Part shown: one piece after another, positions 3,101 through 17,134 of the stretch
Position numbering within the stretch: position 1 is the stretch's first letter
Layout of the letters: each line of letters starts with the position of its first letter
From: a virus
Reading direction: 5' to 3' (one strand)
IMG/VR virus record: IMGVR_UViG_3300042549_005421
Coordinates: 1-20,361 of that record
DNA: 20,361 nt
The notes under the pieces: generated by a model
What the model was told of the DNA's origin: nothing
The model's database searches: none
What the model saw: only the letters and a program-made list of their open reading frames with translations
Made by a program: the position numbers and the translations under genes

Positions 3101-6100
3101 CATAAGGACCAAATATAATTGGACTTACAATTGAATTCACACCACCTCCTTGTGCCAAATAAGAGTCCATAACTCTCCTATTATATTGGGAAGGGTTACC
3201 ATATCTTAATATAACATCATATTCCAAAAATGCCTTAATTGTACTAGAAAATGACCCCAGTTGTGTCCCTTCAATTGTGTTAAAATATTGTTCAGTAGTT
3301 AATGAAGTTGGTTTTGATTCGATTTCCATTAAATTTCTAAATAAGTATTGGAAATTTTTAAACAATCCATTTGGATCTGTAGGTGATTGCCCAATAGGAA
3401 TACTCACATCTGGCCCAAAATCAATATTTGCAATTGGTTTTGACCAATTCAAAAATTCTAATTCAAATTTATCTAAAATATCTTTATCAAATACTGAAAA
3501 AATTTCTTCAATTTTAGAATATTCATCGGTAATTAATAATTTAAATGGAGATTGTTTTGTGGTCCCAGTTTCAATCTTGTTTAAATATGAATCAGGTTGA
3601 GGTTTTATTATTTGGTCGTTGTTAAAATATCCATAATTTGGTGAAGACCATAGTAACCTAACAGATCCATTATAGATAGAATCATTATCAATAAATTGAC
3701 ATGTCGCCAAATTATTATTTATACATTCAATATTAAGTTGGTTAAATTGAGTTCCAAATGAAGGTATTACATAATATTTTAATGAATTTGTATTATTACT
3801 TGGGTTACATTTTGCACCTAAACCTACATTATTTCCCAACGCATCCGGAACAATTACAGACCAAGTTTGAATGGTTTGATATGGGAAAGTATTACCACTT
3901 GAAATTTGGATATTTGAGTTTGTGAAATTAAAAACTTGGAGGCCGTAATTAACACTTTCTTGAATCTCATTATCATCATATAACTGATATAAGTCAAAAC
4001 CATTATAAAACACATTAAAATCATTTATAACCTTAGGATAAAATCCAGTTTGTATTTGAACACTATTGTTATCGGTATTTTGTAATTTAATTTGTTTAAC
4101 ACCATCATAATTAAAGGTATATGTTTTAGTGTCTGAACTTAAAATAGGGTCAAAATTTAACCTATAATCAAAGTCTTTCCACGCCGAATCTAAAATATCA
4201 ACATTAGTTGTTTTATATGTTTTATATCTATACCATATGGAACCTATCTTCAATACCCACGCAAATGGTACCTTATGTATTGCACCAAATTTTTTGAAAC
4301 AAGAAGCAATGTAATCCAAATCAGTTGAAGCATCTAATGTTTTATATTTCTCTTTTAGAGATGCTAACGGTAATGAATTAATAAATAAATACGCAGCCTG
4401 AACATATGGATAACGATCATTTCTTCTCCAATTATTTACACCATTTTGTATTGCGTTAATAAAATAAGGTGTGTTTAACATTGATGTTGTAGTTTCAACG
4501 GAAAGATTATTATTTGGTGAAAAATAATTTACATACCCCTCAGTTGGTACAAAGAATATTGGGTCTTTTCTTAAATTATAAAATGCGGATAAACCAATTG
4601 TAGACACCTGATTTGTTGGATTTGAAACTCTAATGTAAGAGAAATTAGTGACTGGTCTATTTGTTGAATAATCATAGATACTATTAAAGTTTGAAATAAC
4701 ATCTCTATCTTCAAACACCGTTAAAACTCTATTTGTACTATACACCGCAGTTTTATTAGTATCTAAACTATTTGCCATATTTTTAGATACCCATTCCGAA
4801 TCAGTAAAAGGATAAGTGTCAATTATAATCGGATCATTAGTCACCAATTTAGTTAATTGTAATAAACCATCTGAAATTGCTTGTGTTTGGGGTTCTTTCC
4901 CTAAATCATTTAAACTTAAAATACTAAATGAATTCTCAGTTAAACTTTTTATATAAGGTGTTACATAAAAATCCCGAATAAAATCTTGGTATGCACGTCC
5001 AGTTCCTTGGTTTGAAATATTTTCTAAAAAAGTAGGATAATTTTCGGATGTGATATTGTAGTTCTTAAGTTTTAAAGTTAAGAATGGTGAACTAATCCCT
5101 AAACTTGTTGTAATATTATTGGACTCGGACTCTACAATTAAGTTAGATAATTGGTCAATTTGTTTATCATTTCCTCTAATAAAATTAGAATAATATGAAG
5201 TTAAAAATTGTCTTTCCCATATCTCATAAAAAAACTTAATTTCTTCTTTATTTACATATGCAATACCATTAGATGGGTATTCAATCGCATTGAAATTAAT
5301 TATATTTGTTGTGTTTTGACTATCAGTTGGTGGTTGGCTAACCGGTTGCAAAAATTTCTGACTAAGACCTTTCATATATTCCTCAACAAATTCAACTTCA
5401 GGCCACACATCAAACAACCAACCTTTAGTTAAATCAACATATTTAGGATCTCCAGGATATTTTAATTGAAATCTACCCTTTTTATCATCAGGTGTTTCAA
5501 CAAAAAATTGAGGCCATGGGTATATCGGTTGTTGCCCATTAACCAACCCTTGATTTTGATTTTTAGAATCTTGGGATATATTAAAATTTTTAACATTATC
5601 CACACCAAGAGCAGAAGATGGGTTATTTATAATAACATCTTTTCTCGTAGGATTGTACTTAACCTCCCAAGCCTTTGAATGAACTTCATCTAATAATCTT
5701 ATAAACGCCTCCGCCGATGCCATAATAACTGCAGAAATGTTTCTTACCGTAGGTTTAAATCCTATACCTGTTGATGAAGATTCAATTTTTTTCGCCAAAT
5801 CTTCAGTTATTTTAGTTTCAAATTCTAACAATTTTTTATTAGCTTCAGCTTCCATTTTGGACAATAGTTTCTGAAATGTGGTAAAAGTGAAAACAGGTGG
5901 ATTTAATATATTAGTATTGTTAGTTTCAACTCTAGTATCAGTACTATTCCTTTCTAAAACAAATCCGATTTGTTCCTTTATTAAATTTTTAATTGTCTCC
6001 TCATTTTCTTTAGTTGGTAATAAAACACCTGTTTGTGAGATTATTGATTTAGTTAAATCAACATCACTTATTGAAATTTGTTTTAAAAACGCATCATATG

Positions 6101-7764: not shown

Positions 7765-10700
7765 TAGCTAAGTTTTGCTTTTGATATAAATACCCCAATA
7801 GGGTTTTGGTCATTCCAAGTTTTATTATTTGTGTTTTGATTTTCAATCCAACCTAAACCTTGTATTAATTTTTGTTGAGCTGGTGTATTAGCGTCCTCTG
7901 TATCGTAAGTAAATGTTCTTTTCTTTTTTAAATTAAATGGAGTATATTTCAAAAAGTCTTTTAATTTTTCTTTTTCCATATATGAAATAAATTCTTTAGT
8001 TATATTATTTTCTTCTTCAAACGCCGGTTTTGCAATCGTTAACCAATATTTATCAAACTCCGTACTTATTTTATCATTTTCACCCTTAGTAATCAACGCG
8101 GTATTAGTTATAATATTACCAATTAACGCATTTTTAAATGACTCATACTTCTTAGAATCTAATACATCATCAGATACTATCATATAAACTCTTCTAAAAA
8201 CATAACCACTATTACTATCAAATAGTGAGTCTTTACTAAATGGATTGAATACTTTCTCAGTTTCAAGTTTATATTCTGGTTCAAAAACCAAAACACCTTC
8301 ATATTTTTCCTTATTTACAGAATATGTAAATCCGGTTGGTTGCCATATTATATCATTAAAATCTTTAATACCACTTTTAATCTTTAAAACATCGTTTTCA
8401 AATTCAATTAAAGTATTTGATGCTCCATTAGAGCTTGGATCAACTTCAGTTGTCCCTGATATTAAATATGAAGTTACTTTTCCATCCGCAGTTTGATACC
8501 CGTCAGTACCTGTATTTGTTACCGCACTATAACTAATGGTATTTAATCTTCCAATATAACCAATATAGTTTTGTTGAACTCCCACCATGCCATTTATTAT
8601 ACCTGTAATCGCATTTTGGAACGAACCTTTTTTATTATTAATATAATTTGAATAATTTTCCTCGACTTGATTCACAAGTCTATTTGTAAAATTTTGTTTC
8701 GAGATGAAATCAATAAACCCTTCATTTTCATTTTTAATATCTTTTACCAGTTGTTTAAATATTTGATCAATTCTTTTTTCCAAATTATTTGTTTTACCAA
8801 ATAAATAAACATCAGATGATTCGTCAAGATAAAATTTACCTTTTTGATACATTCTTTCCAACATCCATTGTTGACGAACGGCATTATTATATTGATTAAC
8901 AATTTCCTTATTTTTGTTAACAACATTGGTAAAATAATTTTGAGTTTCTTCAACAACTTTATCCATAAATGAACTATAATTAATTATTCCTGTTTGTCCA
9001 CTATTAGTAACAATATTAGTTACAACAGCTCCAATAGGTTTATCGTTAGTTTGACCATTATTTGGAGCGGCTTGGTTAATTGTTGGAGGAGCAACATTAC
9101 TTGCCGCCAGTTTTAAAAATTCAGCATCAATAACTTTGTAACTTAAATCAGTCGAATCCGCTCTATCATCATAAATTTCAGTATTTGCATAATAATTAAA
9201 TGTTAACGCATTTTGTAATTTATCAACAGACTCTTTTAATCCACTACCTCCGACAAAATTAAAACTTAATGTTACATCCGCAATCATAGGTTGAACACCA
9301 ATACCTTCCGGATTTATATCCAAATTTTCATATTTAATACTTAATCCTGTTGGAATAATTTTCGTGTTGTAAAAATCTCCAACCCTTAATATCAATACCG
9401 GAGGAGCTCCAAATGATGTATTAGTTGCATTATTATAATCAAGTGTTTCTCTACCATTATCTACTTTAACTGTTGGTATTGTATCACCAGGTCTCATACA
9501 TTGTTGTAAAAATGTTAGCCTTGAATTAAGCCCTTCTGGCGTCATTGAATGGAAACCGGGTTGAAAAAACTTTAATTTATCTCTTAAATTATCAAACACC
9601 ATTGGAGTCTCTTGTTTTATCACCTCAAAATAATCACACTCGGAAAGTAAAGATCTTAACACTCTTTTACTTATATTATCTCTTTGAGTTACTCTTGTTT
9701 CAAGTGTTGGTACCGTCTCGCTTTTAGTAACAACATTTCCAACAATTACGGTTCTTTCTTTTATCGGTAAAACAGGCGGTGGAGATTTTAAAGTTGAAGT
9801 TATTTTTGATATATATGCTCTTCTACAAGCCATCGCACTTGTGGTAAAAACTTCTTCATTCACTTTATTACCATCTCTTCCATCTTTATCGGTACAATTA
9901 ATCACCCCTTTATCGAAGAATTTTTTGGTATTTTCATCATAAGATTGAGGTTGAGCTCTTTCACCTAAAGCGGTTCCTGGAACAACATTTAGTCTTTTAG
10001 GTGTACCATTAACATATTTCTCCATTCTAGGATTACCTGTTATATAACCGATAGCACTATTAATTCTCCTTTGTGCAAGAGAATCGTTATAAATTAAATC
10101 AGCTTTCGCCGAAGTTGTTGCATCAACTACGATAGTAACAGTACCTTCACTATTACCTATAAATTGCCTTTCTAATTCATTAATTAAATCATCAATACCC
10201 TCTTTATTTTTAGTTATTACCGTATTAAAAAATAATGTTGTATTACCCCCACCTTTATTAATAGATTGTTCTTGATATAAATTTATCGTTGGTCCTGAAA
10301 CATATGACGTATATAAATTATTAAAATTTTGATTATTTGGTTCATTTGGTTTAGGAGTATCATTTTCAAAATAAAAGGCCCTATTAGTAAATTGTTTAAA
10401 ATTATTTTCAGGTGAACTTCCAGTACCTCCATCACCCCCACTGGCACCACCACTATTATCACTTGACACTTGAGGTATATCACTAATTGTTTTAACTGCA
10501 TATTCAATTTGTTCTTTTGTTAACTCTTTAGAACTAAGAGCTGTTTGAAGCTGAAACAAATCGTTTGGAGATATTGTATAATATTTTTTCGCCAATTCAT
10601 ATAAATCATATTTTCTACATCCAGCAAAAAATGATTCCAAGATACTATCAATTCTTGTTTTATTTGTTTCATCACCAAGAACTTTATTGACGATAACATT

Positions 10701-12832: not shown

Positions 12833-12845
12833 TTATTTATAAATA
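12833..12845 (-). promoter_or_regulatory. TATTTATAAATAA box, T4 late-promoter-like
   Basis: The minus strand reads TATTTATAAATAA, containing an exact TATAAATA (12834-12841), the T4 late promoter -10 octamer. It ends 11 nt before the ATG of the 1685-aa gene, in the only gap (51 bp) between that gene and the tape measure gene. If it is a promoter, the mRNA leader would be only a few nucleotides. The core is palindromic, so the same octamer can be read on the plus strand, but no plus-strand gene follows. It is a prediction from sequence only. Confidence 0.45.
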
Positions 12846-12872: not shown

Positions 12873-14696
12873 TTATTTTGTTTTTTCAAGTTCTTTACTT
12901 TTTGATGACCAGTATTCATAAATCATTCTTTTAAAACTTGGAGATTCAAAATAAGTTGTTAATTGTTGTTGACTAACTCCTGGAGGAGCATCAACTTTAA
13001 TTGTTATAACTCCACCTAAATCAACTTTTGAATTAACAGTCTGAACACCACTAGTTTTTTCCGAAGGACTATTAAAACTTCTAGTCCCAAAAATACTTGT
13101 TTTACTTATTGATTCTTGTCCAACAACTTTAGGTAAATTTGCAGTCTTTTTATATAATTCCTCTCCGGTAATTTCTTTTCTAAAAAATTTTTCAACATCA
13201 CTAGATCCCTTAATTGATTTTGCCGTTTCATCTAAAATTTCTTTTATTATTTTTTTACTTTCTTCAGCAAGATTGCTAGCTCCTCCAACAAATTTTTCTT
13301 TAATTTTATCAAAATTACTTCCAAAATCTTTTATATCAATTTTATTTGAATTAATATCTTGAAATAAATTTTTCATTTTATCTATTGCTCCCGTGACATC
13401 TTTTCTAATTTCACCCGTTTTAGGCATCTTTTTCTGTCCAATATCAGAAAAAGTTTTAACAATATTTGTAACTCCTTCAAGATTTGAAATTAAAGGTTGG
13501 GAGGATACTGCTCCGAACTTACCAGCATTTAAAATTGCGTTCATATCTGATGCAATTGATTTTAAAAACCCTAATTGACTTCTTTGAATATCTTCAACGG
13601 TTTTTGGTGCGTCTTTTTGTTGTTTAATTAATTCATCAAATTCGTCTTGATTTAAATTTTGTAGGTCTTTTTTAGTTCCATCGTTTAATTCAACCTCATA
13701 TTTACCACCTTCACCCATCTTGGCAATATTAGCCAAATATTGTTTATCTTCTTCATTTTTAAACTTTAATCCAGCAAAACTTACTTGAGACAATCTTTTG
13801 TCTAAGTCTGCTGCGGCTAAAGCTGATTTTGATAATGAACCTGATGTCAATCCTGCGGCTTCTTCCATTTCTCTCAAAATTAAAACCCCTTGAGTATTTA
13901 TTTTAAATGAATTAGTTTCTTTACTAAAACTTACAAATTTTTGCCCTACTCTAGCCAAACTATTTTGTAATCCGGTTGGGTCGGTTAACGATTTGTTAAA
14001 TAACGCAAATGGATCAACTAAATCACCAGCGACAACCCCTAATCTTTGAAATGCCGCGGCAACATTAATTGCCTTTTCAGGGTTTAACATGTCATCTGTA
14101 AACCGAAAAGTTTCACTCATATCAATCCTTAACATTGACGCTTGTGCTGCCATTTTTGCAAGTCCTTGAACCCCACCGACAAACTGATAACGATTCATTT
14201 TATCCATATTGTCGGAAACGTTTTTCATAACCGTAACAGCATTTACCCCGACACTTTGAATATATTGTATTGAGTTTTCTAAATTAACACCAATTTGTGA
14301 TGTTTCATACCCAGCATTTTTAAAATTTTCGGTTAAATCCTGAGCACTAATACCTAAAACTTGACTTGCGGCAAATAGTTTACTAACAACATCTTCATTT
14401 TCAATAACATTTCGGTTAGAAGCTTTGGCTATTTGACTAATTGTTGTGTTAACATCATCAAATGAACCCCCTAATTTAGCAATTCCAACAGATGAATCGG
14501 CAAATGCTCTCTGCATTTCCAAAATTCTACTCCTACCTAAACCAAAATTTTTATTTAATAAATTTGCAGAACCGACCATCTTGTCCAATGAAATTGCAAG
14601 ACTCTCTACTGGTGATAATATCTCATTAACTATATTTTTAAACTCCTTAAGATCGTTTAATCCGTTACCAAGGTCTGGGGTCTTTTCCTCTTGCAT
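12873..14696 (-). CDS. Tail tape measure protein
   Basis: 607 residues, close to the 590 of T4 gp29. The protein is mostly helical, rich in Lys/Glu/Asn/Ala and without long membrane segments. Residues about 1-110 are heptad-like (LKEFKNIVNEILSPVESLA). The middle contains tape-measure-like helical repeats with regular Ala/Gly/Asn spacing (AAAFQRLGVVAGDLVDPFAL). The C terminus ends in a compact beta/alpha element, VDLGGVITIKVDAPPGVS, then a helix with FKRMIYEYW, similar to the conserved ends of many tape measure proteins. It lies just after the chaperone pair, the usual position for a tape measure. At about 1.5 angstroms per residue it predicts a tail near 90 nm, about T4 length. It would line the inside of the tube and be released on infection. 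The start ATG at 14696 follows an AT-rich box and has no Shine-Dalgarno sequence. Confidence 0.75.
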   Translation of the reverse strand: MQEEKTPDLGNGLNDLKEFKNIVNEILSPVESLAISLDKMVGSANLLNKNFGLGRSRILEMQRAFADSSVGIAKLGGSFDDVNTTISQIAKASNRNVIENEDVVSKLFAASQVLGISAQDLTENFKNAGYETSQIGVNLENSIQYIQSVGVNAVTVMKNVSDNMDKMNRYQFVGGVQGLAKMAAQASMLRIDMSETFRFTDDMLNPEKAINVAAAFQRLGVVAGDLVDPFALFNKSLTDPTGLQNSLARVGQKFVSFSKETNSFKINTQGVLILREMEEAAGLTSGSLSKSALAAADLDKRLSQVSFAGLKFKNEEDKQYLANIAKMGEGGKYEVELNDGTKKDLQNLNQDEFDELIKQQKDAPKTVEDIQRSQLGFLKSIASDMNAILNAGKFGAVSSQPLISNLEGVTNIVKTFSDIGQKKMPKTGEIRKDVTGAIDKMKNLFQDINSNKIDIKDFGSNFDKIKEKFVGGASNLAEESKKIIKEILDETAKSIKGSSDVEKFFRKEITGEELYKKTANLPKVVGQESISKTSIFGTRSFNSPSEKTSGVQTVNSKVDLGGVITIKVDAPPGVSQQQLTTYFESPSFKRMIYEYWSSKSKELEKTK

Positions 14697-14706
14697 ATAA
14701 TTTAAC

Positions 14707-14720
14707 TTTATATATAAATA
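14707..14720 (-). promoter_or_regulatory. AT-rich late-promoter-like box before the tape measure gene
   Basis: The minus strand reads TATTTATATATAAA, ending 10 nt before the ATG at 14696. It is the same 14-base string as the one before the gene at 1-103, and both are followed by an A/T spacer ending in ATTATATG. It lies immediately downstream of a hairpin (14722-14750), so the tape measure gene may begin a separate transcript. This is an inference from the repeated motif; no transcription evidence is available. Confidence 0.42.
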
Positions 14721-14721
14721 G

Positions 14722-14750
14722 AAGAAGGACTAAAATTTTTAGTCCTTCTT
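14722..14750 (-). terminator. Hairpin overlapping the end of the small chaperone gene
   Basis: An inverted repeat with a 10-bp arm (AAGAAGGACT / AGTCCTTCTT) around a 9-nt A/T loop; the loop bases can extend the pairing. Read on the minus strand, the TAA stop of the 59-codon gene (14739-14741) falls at the 5'-arm/loop junction. What follows on the minus strand is CTATTTATATA, not a clean T-run, so termination may be weak. The hairpin could instead protect the mRNA end or block re-initiation into the tape measure gene. On the plus strand the tail is TTCTTGTTATC, also not convincing. Confidence 0.4.
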
Positions 14751-14918
14751 GTTATCTTCAAGCCATTTATCTAATAAATACTTTCTTACAAATAATGGTA
14801 TTTTTTCAAAATCACCATAACTAATATTCATTAATTTGTTTAAATAATAAAATTCATCTATTTGGTTTTTCCTATAATCAGAAGAAAGGACGAAAAAACT
14901 CGACCCCAAACCCAACAT
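14739..14918 (-). CDS. Small overlapping tail-assembly chaperone-like protein (59 codons)
   Basis: A 59-codon frame overlapping the last 41 nt of the gp26-type gene in the +1 frame. It opens with an ATG at 14918-14916, directly after the in-frame triplets TAA TAG TGA, and ends at TAA 14741-14739. After a short N-terminal lead the peptide contains IDEFYYLNKLMNISYGDF, then EKIPLFVRKYLLDKW. This 'hydrophobic helix, then Y-x-D/E-h, then I/L-P-x-x-x-R-x-x-h-x-x-x-h' layout is typical of the C-terminal part of tail-assembly chaperones upstream of tape measures (the T of lambda G/GT, and the small partner of T4-like gp26). It lies between the gp26-type gene and the tape measure, exactly where such a partner belongs. 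It could be made from its own ATG, by coupling to the upstream stop (TGA 14880-14878), or by +1 frameshifting at a TTTTTTC run (14892-14898). Reality of the ORF is fairly secure; the function is inferred. Confidence 0.65.
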   Translation of the reverse strand: MLGLGSSFFVLSSDYRKNQIDEFYYLNKLMNISYGDFEKIPLFVRKYLLDKWLEDNKKD

Positions 14919-15621
14919 TCACTATTAGGGTTTCTCCGGACGGGGCCATTATTGATTTATTCATATCTAATCTAGGTTCATTTTCATTCATAAATTTTCT
15001 AATAAATTTAGAATCTGAAATAGGCATTGTTTCTATAAATTTAGAAATAACAGATTTATCTGTAGATCCATCAATTTCAACAATTTCTTTTTGTAATCTC
15101 CAAGTTATTTTTGGAACAACTCTACCTTGAGGGTATGTATCCGAAAGTCTATTAATTTCCATTATCTCACCATAATTAAGAGGTTTTATTTTAATTGTTA
15201 CTTGAGATTTTGGTAATTGGAACATAAATGTTCCATCTTCATTTGGATTTTGACCTTTTATAACATTTAGTTCATCTATTAAAACTGAAGTTTTAAATGG
15301 TTTTTTCGTGACAGGGTCGGTAAGATTTAATGTTATTTCGGGACCAAATCCGGTATTTCTTAAAAAAATTAATATTGCTTCAATATCTCCTTCAAGTAAA
15401 TCCTCAACCTTAACATCAGGTTCATATATTTTGGATCTTAGTAAATTAGTTGTGAAATCAACCCCTCCACCCATTATAATATTTTCGTCTGATGCGGTAA
15501 GATAACCGACTTTTAAAGATTTCTTTTTATTTTTATAAAAAAGTCCTTGTGATGGTAATTGAACCACATCATGTGGTAGTGTAAAATTTTCTTGACCGTA
15601 GTCTCTTGATTGTGTTTCCAT
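14878..15621 (-). CDS. 26: gp26-type baseplate hub / tail-assembly chaperone protein
   Basis: A 247-residue protein that opens with a signature of the T4 gp26-like 'T4 baseplate' family: LPHDVVQLPSQGLFYKNKK, then VGYLTASDENIIMGGGVDF. The middle (residues about 75-160) is built of beta strands and short helices (LEGDIEAILIFLRNTGFG, PLNYGEIMEINRLSD). In T4, gp26 acts with gp28, gp29 and gp51 in hub and tape-measure assembly and is regarded as a chaperone more than a final structural part. T4 gp26 is 208 aa, so this one is slightly larger. Context agrees, because tape measure and baseplate genes follow. Its ATG at 15621 sits only 4 nt past the T-run of a strong terminator, so its transcript must come mostly from readthrough. 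Its end overlaps the small chaperone-like gene in the +1 frame. There is no membrane or signal segment. Confidence 0.72.
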   Translation of the reverse strand: METQSRDYGQENFTLPHDVVQLPSQGLFYKNKKKSLKVGYLTASDENIIMGGGVDFTTNLLRSKIYEPDVKVEDLLEGDIEAILIFLRNTGFGPEITLNLTDPVTKKPFKTSVLIDELNVIKGQNPNEDGTFMFQLPKSQVTIKIKPLNYGEIMEINRLSDTYPQGRVVPKITWRLQKEIVEIDGSTDKSVISKFIETMPISDSKFIRKFMNENEPRLDMNKSIMAPSGETLIVNVGFGVEFFRPFF

Positions 15622-15704: not shown

Positions 15705-16193
15705 TCAATAAACCAATACACATCTATCCATCCTTAATGTTGCCGTAATATCTGCCAAAGCGTCTTGACTATAACTTAAAGCACCAAAATCAACGTCAGT
15801 TAAAAATGTTCCATAGAGAATCCATTTTTCAACCACAACTCCTGTTGGGTCTAACATTTCAAGGTCTATGTCTTTCTTATAACCCGCAGCATAACCCATA
15901 CGACCGGTAACAGATTCGGCATGTAGACGAACCCACTCCATAAGTGCTTGAGCAGCTGAAGGACCAATCGGGTCACGGAATTTAACCTGAATTGTGTCCC
16001 AATTAAATCTACCTGCAACGAATGTTGAGGTATTTAAAAACTGAATTTCAGTTGGTGCAATTTTAATACTTGGTCTTTTAGCGGTTTCAACAAACCATTC
16101 ATTTATCCCTAAGCTGGATGGAAACCTTAAAATGAACCGATTCTGTCTTTTTGGTTCATAAGGTATGGGCATTTTCATTAATAAATCAGCCAT
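15705..16193 (-). CDS. 19: Tail tube protein, T4 gp19 family
   Basis: 162 residues, almost the same as T4 gp19 (163). It is a single-domain beta-barrel protein that stacks as hexameric rings to form the inner tube through which DNA passes. Family features visible: an N-terminal MADLLMKMPIPYEPKRQNRF that leads into the first strand, a central FNWDTIQVKFRDPIGPSAAQ, then a helix with ALMEWVRLHAESVTGRMGYA, and a closing GALSYSQDALADITATLRMD with a final beta strand. It lies downstream of the sheath, with the HAD gene in between, and is followed by a strong terminator, as suits a very abundant product. Its base composition is less AT-biased than that of its neighbours, as expected for high expression. 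The ATG at 16193 is preceded by an A-rich leader without a Shine-Dalgarno sequence. Stop is TGA. Confidence 0.93.
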   Translation of the reverse strand: MADLLMKMPIPYEPKRQNRFILRFPSSLGINEWFVETAKRPSIKIAPTEIQFLNTSTFVAGRFNWDTIQVKFRDPIGPSAAQALMEWVRLHAESVTGRMGYAAGYKKDIDLEMLDPTGVVVEKWILYGTFLTDVDFGALSYSQDALADITATLRMDRCVLVY

Positions 16194-16224: not shown

Positions 16225-16237
16225 TATTTTATAAATA
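16225..16237 (-). promoter_or_regulatory. TATTTATAAAATA box upstream of the tail tube gene
   Basis: The minus strand reads TATTTATAAAATA, 31 nt before the tube ATG, in the 96-bp gap after the HAD gene. It shares the TATTTATA core with the boxes at 12833-12845, 14707-14720 and 111-125. This spacing would give a short, A-rich 5' leader. It is a candidate promoter for the highly expressed tube gene; the alternative is the exact TATAAATA at 16291-16298. Confidence 0.4.
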
Positions 16238-16289: not shown

Positions 16290-17120
16290 CTATTTATATA
16301 ACTTTTTAATGCCTCCAGCCGTAGAATAAGTCTTAACTATATTATCTGGTTTATCTTTAAAATGTTTACTCATAGCTTCTACGTTTTTTATATCATCATC
16401 TGAAAATCCTATAACCGGTTCTTTTGGTATAAAATTATTTGAAATATCATTTTTAATAAATGCCCTTTTATTTATAATTCCAGACATTCCTTTTATATAT
16501 GATACAAAATCTTCCATAGCTTTAACTTTTAATTCTTCAGGATTTGATACTCCTTCTTCATTACCAAAACTAACAGGGTGATACTTATTTAACTCTAAAT
16601 ACGATTTAATTAATTCGTCGTCACTCATTTCATCTTCATTAACAAACGACCTATATTTTTTTAAATTTTTAATTAATGTGTCTTTATCTATACCATTAAA
16701 ACCACTTATAATGTAATTATATATCGATTGTTTTAATGTTTCAGGATTATGACCTCTAGCCGTTATAATTGCAAAAATTGACCCATTATTTATCGCTTCT
16801 CTGAAGTCGTTAAACGCTGGACCTTCTTTAGCCCTCATAGAGTCAATCAAAAAATCTTTATCACCTTCCGTCCTAAAATTCCTAAATGGTTCATCAGCAT
16901 ACCCAACAACCACTTTTCCTTTGTATTGTATGGGAGTTTTACCTAAATCATGTCTATACTCTGCAAAATCATCAGTACTCATACCAATTTCTTCACCATC
17001 TTCAGTTTTTAACATAATTTTAGTTGGCATATGAACAATATTATCATCCCAATCAAAGGCATAATATTTCATATCTGGTGTTCCCTCGGGATTAAATCCT
17101 TCTTTAATCTGTTTTTTCAT
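16290..17120 (-). CDS. HAD-superfamily phosphatase-like protein
   Basis: 276 residues from the ATG at 17120-17118. A TTG at 17129 would add three residues but starts only 5 nt after a hairpin. Using the longer numbering, HAD motif I is YYAFDWDDNIV with the nucleophile and acid Asp pair at residues 26 and 28. Motif II is IITARGHN with Thr at 123, motif III Lys is probably 201 or 203 (EELKVKAMEDF), and motif IV is IGFSDDDIKNVEAM with acids at 244-246. All catalytic positions are present, so it is probably an active Mg-dependent phosphohydrolase, on a nucleotide, sugar or end-group substrate that I cannot name. The long cap-like stretch (about 31-115) and helices at 145-185 are additions. It sits between sheath and tube, so it would be made late. 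It ends in TAG, whose bases overlap a TATAAATA box. It could alternatively modify or process a tail component, but I see no evidence for that. Confidence 0.78.
   Translation of the reverse strand: MKKQIKEGFNPEGTPDMKYYAFDWDDNIVHMPTKIMLKTEDGEEIGMSTDDFAEYRHDLGKTPIQYKGKVVVGYADEPFRNFRTEGDKDFLIDSMRAKEGPAFNDFREAINNGSIFAIITARGHNPETLKQSIYNYIISGFNGIDKDTLIKNLKKYRSFVNEDEMSDDELIKSYLELNKYHPVSFGNEEGVSNPEELKVKAMEDFVSYIKGMSGIINKRAFIKNDISNNFIPKEPVIGFSDDDIKNVEAMSKHFKDKPDNIVKTYSTAGGIKKLYK
16291..16298 (-). promoter_or_regulatory. Exact TATAAATA octamer at the end of the HAD gene
   Basis: The minus strand reads TATAAATA, identical to the T4 late promoter -10 element, extended upstream by TA. It covers the last codons and most of the TAG stop of the HAD gene, and is about 97 nt before the tube ATG. 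Transcription starting here would give an untranslated, A-rich leader of roughly 85-90 nt for the tube. The AT-rich composition makes chance octamers common, so confidence is moderate. Confidence 0.42.
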
Positions 17121-17134
17121 ATTTGGCAATTAAA

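Follow-up and report, generated by a model that had tools for sequence, protein, structure and literature searches.

The virus record IMGVR_UViG_3300042549_005421 (20,361 bp; the whole of it was analyzed and is referred to here as the window) carries, in the +1 frame of a gp26-type tail gene on the minus strand, a small open reading frame (ORF) that, to judge from comparison with its relatives, is a real, conserved, and overlooked coding region. We read this ORF, with a probability of roughly 0.9, as the T half of a tail-assembly chaperone that resembles T4 gp26/gp51 and has two products, the long one of which would be made by a +1 ribosomal slip; T is most likely a C-terminal domain, to which ribosomes gain access by programmed +1 frameshifting in the last codons of the gp26-type gene. 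The original prediction, made from the window alone, had described a 59-codon ORF that overlaps the gp26-type gene by 41 nt, begins with its own ATG directly after the triplets TAA TAG TGA, and encodes the small partner of a tail-assembly chaperone pair. The ORF, its overlap, and the three triplets are all present as described, and the partner assignment is supported by the location between the tail tube and tape measure genes and by homologous layouts in other phages; the part that most likely does not hold is that of a separate gene entered at its own ATG.

The T region is under strong purifying selection, and its frame is conserved as protein. In IMG/VR, relatives of the ORF are encoded in at least 459 stretches and close relatives of the gp26-type protein in 259, and in every locus examined the ORF relative is found where a gp26-type gene ends. 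The 45 codons that extend beyond gp26 remain open in 0.3% of base shuffles. Across 58 distinct versions, the ratio of nonsynonymous to synonymous change (pN/pS) in these codons is 0.16, with synonymous change near saturation, against 0.23 for gp26 itself; the two other frames of the same DNA gave values of 0.89 and 1.64, with 5 to 6 stops each. Loss of the frame in relatives, and synonymous and nonsynonymous changes in equal measure, had been proposed as evidence against the ORF; we ran both comparisons, and the ORF came through both.

Conservation at the 3' end of gp26 extends to the choice of codons. Among 114 distinct genes the consensus is GGG GNN GAN TTT TTT CG(T/C) CCT TTC TTC T(G/A)A, and few genes depart from it: 8 have CTC instead of CGY, one (in contig L243) has TTC TTT, and 3 have lost the stop (TTC GGA TTA TAG). 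UUU243 is found in all 114 genes and UUU242 in 113. Codon 244 is CGT in 59, CGC in 46, and CTC in 8 of 113 genes, and nothing else, whereas arginine elsewhere in gp26 is encoded by AGA (543), AGG (68), CGA (43), CGT (17), and CGC (0). Of the amino-acid-invariant columns, 6 of 13 in the last 23 codons are also codon invariant, versus 1 of 74 upstream (Fisher P, 2e-5). The invariance of CCT TTC TTC could follow from dual coding alone, but the first UUU, GGG239, and the preference for CGY do not follow from translation of T alone. What is conserved in all 114 genes is a shift-prone codon pair, UUU_CGY/CUC, that permits re-pairing in the +1 frame. A +1 slip of Phe-tRNA from UUU to UUC beside the rare CGY codon would account for the invariance of the site, for the rare codon, and for the missing start codons described below.

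An improbable alternative is that the ORF is a separate overlapping gene, expressed from its own ATG inside gp26 as a free 59-amino-acid partner protein. About 100 of 113 distinct versions retain the ATG, a few have GTG or TTG, and in two distant relatives (L173 and L178) T is an ORF of its own, whose ATG lies just past the gp26 stop. The start codon is not conserved in all members, however. The ATG is a by-product of the gp26 codons for Asn-Val (AAT GTT), and 10 of the 113 distinct genes have no ATG, GTG, or TTG in the +1 frame ahead of the conserved core, the next start lying inside the core; a group of distant contigs (L163 to L171) likewise lacks any start codon there. Several relatives have a TAG six codons past the ATG. 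These genes are scattered on the tree, with at least six state changes for the absence of a start and five for the TAG. The TAG version was recovered in five contigs, one of them a 309-kb record, possibly incomplete, with a single PF12322 gene, so that sequencing error or a second chaperone gene are poor explanations there; each relative record contains one PF12322 gene. No Shine-Dalgarno sequence is found at normal spacing from the ATG of the ORF, a GGAG being about 15 nt away, and a separate gene would leave the invariant UUU and the rare CGY codons unexplained.

Less probable still is fusion of the two frames by a −2 ribosomal slip on UUUUUU or by RNA polymerase slippage at the same run. 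Both events lead to the same frame as the +1 slip, and six consecutive U residues are present in 113 of the 114 distinct genes; nevertheless, the U run is not needed, given TTC TTT CGT in L243 and AAC TTT CTA in the distant relative LR756508, six U residues are short for polymerase slippage, and the CGY preference would be unexplained. RNA-level constraint is strong in the overlap region, but that the frame is an untranslated by-product of RNA or gp26 constraint is scarcely credible in view of the pN/pS and near-saturated synonymous change past gp26, and of T homologues in distant phages that hold the protein motif in a different DNA context.

An RNA hairpin immediately upstream of the slip site is conserved beyond codon constraint. 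Its outer stem pairs GCCCC (14942-14946) with GGGGU (14903-14907), its inner stem pairs 14923-14928 with 14912-14917, and the hairpin ends 7 nt before the P-site UUU. Folding of codons 224 to 241 gave a z score of −2.78 against synonymous recodings, compared with −0.03 to −0.68 for seven control windows. The RCCCC/GGGGY stem is part of the minimum free energy (MFE) structure in 62 of 64 distinct sequences; the outer pair 226.1-240.2 is GU, GC, or AU, and never A-C, in 113 sequences. The consensus fold includes one inner pair with a compensatory change, which a single group has inherited. Besides the window family, the hairpin is clear in LR756508 and the Microcystis phage Mel-JY01, where the local fold at the matching place is stronger than at any other tested position in their genes; in Bacillus SP-15 and in the L163 group the fold is intermediate (weaker). 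In a 70S system, +1 frameshifting is stimulated by hairpins that refold beside the E site (PMC6321510). The hairpin described here would be a likely +1 stimulator. A downstream RNA stimulator was also considered and rejected: the stretch in the window is not unusually stable (z, −0.55), and downstream of the site synonymous change is nearly saturated. A search of Rfam gave no meaningful match at the frameshift site.

In the scheme that we infer, for the slip and its rate as well as for the roles of the hairpin and the proteins, most ribosomes would read gp26 to its own stop (...EFFRPFF*), giving the short form. With Phe-tRNA on UUU (codon 243) in the P site and the next codon, the rare CGY, in the A site, a minority of ribosomes would slip one base forward, from UUU to UUC, probably helped by the hairpin refolding behind the ribosome. 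The slipped ribosomes would then read GUC CUU UCU..., run past the gp26 stop, and append the 50-amino-acid T domain. The predicted long form has 293 amino acids (...VEFF|VLSSDYRK...), with the junction peptide SIMAPSGETLIVNVGFGVEFFVLSSDYR. By analogy with lambda G/GT, the short form may coat the tape measure protein, and the T domain may recruit tail tube subunits.

The protein sequences and models are in keeping with a reading of the gp26-type gene and T as a tail-assembly chaperone, with T as the partner half. The gp26-type protein matches PF12322 (T4_baseplate) at an E value of 2.2e-5 (24.7 bits; cutoff, 24.5) and phrog_150 (baseplate hub) at 3.5e-11 over residues 15 to 244. The two halves were folded separately with AlphaFold2 (AF2). 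The model of the gp26-type half (pLDDT, 84.8; pTM, 0.79) matches T4-type hub assembly proteins in BFVD, and the T half is modeled as three helices (pLDDT, 81). Searched alone, the 59-amino-acid ORF matched 0 families in Pfam, and its best PHROGs match (E value, 0.18) is unusable. Alignment of T with the C-terminal stretch of T4 gp51 by hhalign scored 23.9, against a mean of 3.2 (standard deviation, 2.3; maximum, 11.2) for 100 column-shuffled decoys, with a probability of only 25% over a short stretch; the gp51 stretch is in register with T in the full-length alignment, itself of low probability (13%).

Several observations weigh against the two-product, frameshifted chaperone. Since most versions retain the ATG, some T could also be made as a free protein by internal initiation. 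The hairpin is absent in the Flavobacterium phage immuto, the Streptococcus phage GXN1, Listeria LIS04, and the contig L180, and is thus not a universal part of the system. Of 986 PDB chains, that of the HK97 tail assembly chaperone (2ob9_B) matches the gp26-type model best, but this match is weak, with a Z score of 5.2 (root mean square deviation, 4.6 over 90 residues; next best Z, 3.6) that lies below the usual trust level of 8. A Foldseek search with the T model gave no match with an E value below 0.001; a tail assembly chaperone ranked fourth (E value, 3.3).

More distant gp26 homologues, at 25 to 40% identity, have a +1 ORF with the T motif at the matching place. The site is UUU CUA in LR756508, UUU CUU UGG in immuto, UUU CGU CCC in GXN1, UUU UUU AGU in LIS04, and UUU CAC in SP-15; UUU UGG is found in Mel-JY01, Rhodothermus RM378, and the IMG/VR contigs L163 to L177 (L173 excepted), L179, and L180. 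The L163 to L171 contigs also have a stop codon just ahead of the site, with no start codon after it. A scan of the genome collection found no relative, and tblastn of the 59-amino-acid ORF against cultured phages gave nothing usable. Comparison of these sequences suggests that the gp26-T unit is stable while its decoding changes among +1, −1, and a separate gene, as is known for lambda-type chaperones. In the Agrobacterium phage Atu_ph07, a probable −1 frameshift at U_UUU_UUC would lead into a T-like domain (about 3260 to 3520) that is not annotated. In cultured phages, annotation has missed the T half, truncated it, or given it as a separate hypothetical protein (Mel-JY01, 3231-3467; downstream of gp26 in L184 and L189).

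The features of the locus are collected in Table 1. The minus-strand order is sheath, 279-amino-acid gene, tube, gp26-type gene, ORF, putative tape measure, 1,685-amino-acid gene, gp53-like wedge, and 2,442-amino-acid gene; relatives, too, have the order sheath-tube-gp26-T-tape measure, and in the annotated relatives SP-15, LIS04, and immuto the tape measure follows gp26/T. The Pfam TMP_2 match of the putative tape measure is weak (E value, 0.06). The gp26-type gene and the next gene downstream, which starts at 14696, are separated by 181 bp, not by the 140 bp of the original prediction, and the ORF covers about 139 nt of this gap.

Table 1. Features of the tail gene region in the window.
Feature	Position	Strand	Basis
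Tail sheath, open at the contig end	17171-20359	minus	PF17482, E value 1.5e-7
279-amino-acid gene between sheath and tube, HAD-like FDWDDN start	16290-17129	minus	Without Pfam match
Tail tube protein, gp19 type	15705-16193	minus	phrog_4542 tail tube, E value 2e-25
gp26-type gene, 247 amino acids, short chaperone form (TAC-N/"G")	14878-15621	minus	PF12322, phrog_150, AF2, 2ob9 match
5' RNA hairpin	14903-14946	minus	z score versus synonymous recodings, MFE, consensus fold
Predicted +1 frameshift site, UUU UUU CGU	14890-14898	minus	Codon invariance in distinct genes
Predicted slip, P-site UUU to UUC, C14892 passed over	14893-14895	minus	
T domain, +1 frame, 50 amino acids, three predicted helices; C terminus of predicted long form (TAC-NC/"GT")	14742-14891	minus	pN/pS 0.16, AF2, homologous +1 domains in distant phages
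Stop codon TAA of the +1 frame	14739-14741	minus	Sequence
Mechanical 59-codon ORF	14739-14918	minus	ATG at 14916-14918 probably not the entry point
Inverted repeat, 14 bp, perfect, spanning the T stop codon	14721-14750	minus	Sequence; seen in relatives examined
Putative tape measure protein, 607 amino acids	12873-14696	minus	Position after gp26/T as in annotated SP-15, LIS04, immuto
Very large tail or baseplate protein, 1,685 amino acids	7764-12821	minus	No above-threshold Pfam match
Very large tail or baseplate protein, 2,442 amino acids	144-7472	minus	No above-threshold Pfam match

Two further signals lie around these genes. The inverted repeat at the T stop codon is followed by CTATTTATATA; among 89 distinct downstream stretches, the relatives listed have it too, with a loop that varies. 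It resembles a hairpin for termination or processing, lies between the chaperone and tape measure genes, and could set the ratio of the two. The motif TATTTATA occurs on the minus strand at 118-125, 7785-7792, 12838-12845, 14713-14720, and 16230-16237, four of the five copies lying 17 to 44 nt upstream of tail gene starts; it is a candidate late promoter motif, reminiscent of T4 TATAAATA.

T4 gp26 and gp51 are the short and long tail-assembly chaperones, according to Vladimirov, Gautam, and Davidson (2022; doi 10.1016/j.virol.2021.11.003) as cited in PMC10885494 and PMC12846349; the chaperone pair being already published, we dropped the idea that the identity of T4 gp51 as GT is new. The PF12322 domain is common to T4 gp26, gp51, and the gene described here, and the extra C-terminal stretch of gp51 is the part that would correspond to T. 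In T4, however, the short and long forms come from separate genes without a frameshift, whereas here one gene with a +1 slip is predicted. Lambda G/GT and other frameshifted chaperones share with the system predicted here a short form, a shift near its end, a T extension, and a position between tube and tape measure (PMC5009743), but they mostly shift −1 at classic slippery heptamers rather than +1 at UUU_CGY with an upstream hairpin; +1 was already considered likely for the halovirus HSTV-2. In the Pseudomonas phage Adele and its relatives (TAC-N/TAC-NC), the T half was likewise overlooked and annotated as hypothetical, and the frameshift evidence was comparative, but the shift there is −1 at GTTTTT (PMC12846349).

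The slip site itself is a simple one, shows strong conservation, and is common among phages of fresh water. Its six bases and the following C are also those of the influenza A PA-X site (UUU CGU C), for which the proposed event is the same slip from UUU to UUC before a rare arginine codon. Gene and host are unrelated, and PA-X has no evident stimulatory signal by the account in PMC5009743, whereas here a 5' hairpin is conserved. In E. coli prfB and in synthetic upstream-hairpin reporters (PMC6321510), a duplex that the mRNA forms immediately before the P site also aids the +1 slip; prfB uses Shine-Dalgarno pairing and a stop codon, in contrast to the intramolecular hairpin and rare sense codon here. 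The hairpin offers an opportunity to test whether RNA that folds behind the ribosome alters the reading frame.

What appears to be new is +1 frameshifting in the T4-type chaperone family with a likely upstream-hairpin stimulator, although Vladimirov et al. may already mention some of these phages. The long form has been missed or misnamed by annotation in hundreds of phage contigs and in such cultured phages as immuto, SP-15, and Mel-JY01. We tentatively suggest that a +1 frameshift at UUU_(C/U)NN might be ancient and common to the T4-type chaperones outside the T4 group, and that hairpin refolding behind the ribosome might often drive it; this would be a natural class of a mechanism known mainly from synthetic reporters, and a state from which the T4 two-gene gp26/gp51 arrangement may have arisen. 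In a 2016 review, T4 is the exception among long-tailed phages in that its tail chaperone is not frameshifted (PMC5009743), and later work accounts for T4 by two genes. Since close and distant relatives of T4 gp26 apparently frameshift, and do so in the +1 direction, this exception becomes one end of a series that runs from +1 slip through −1 slip and a separate T gene to two full genes.
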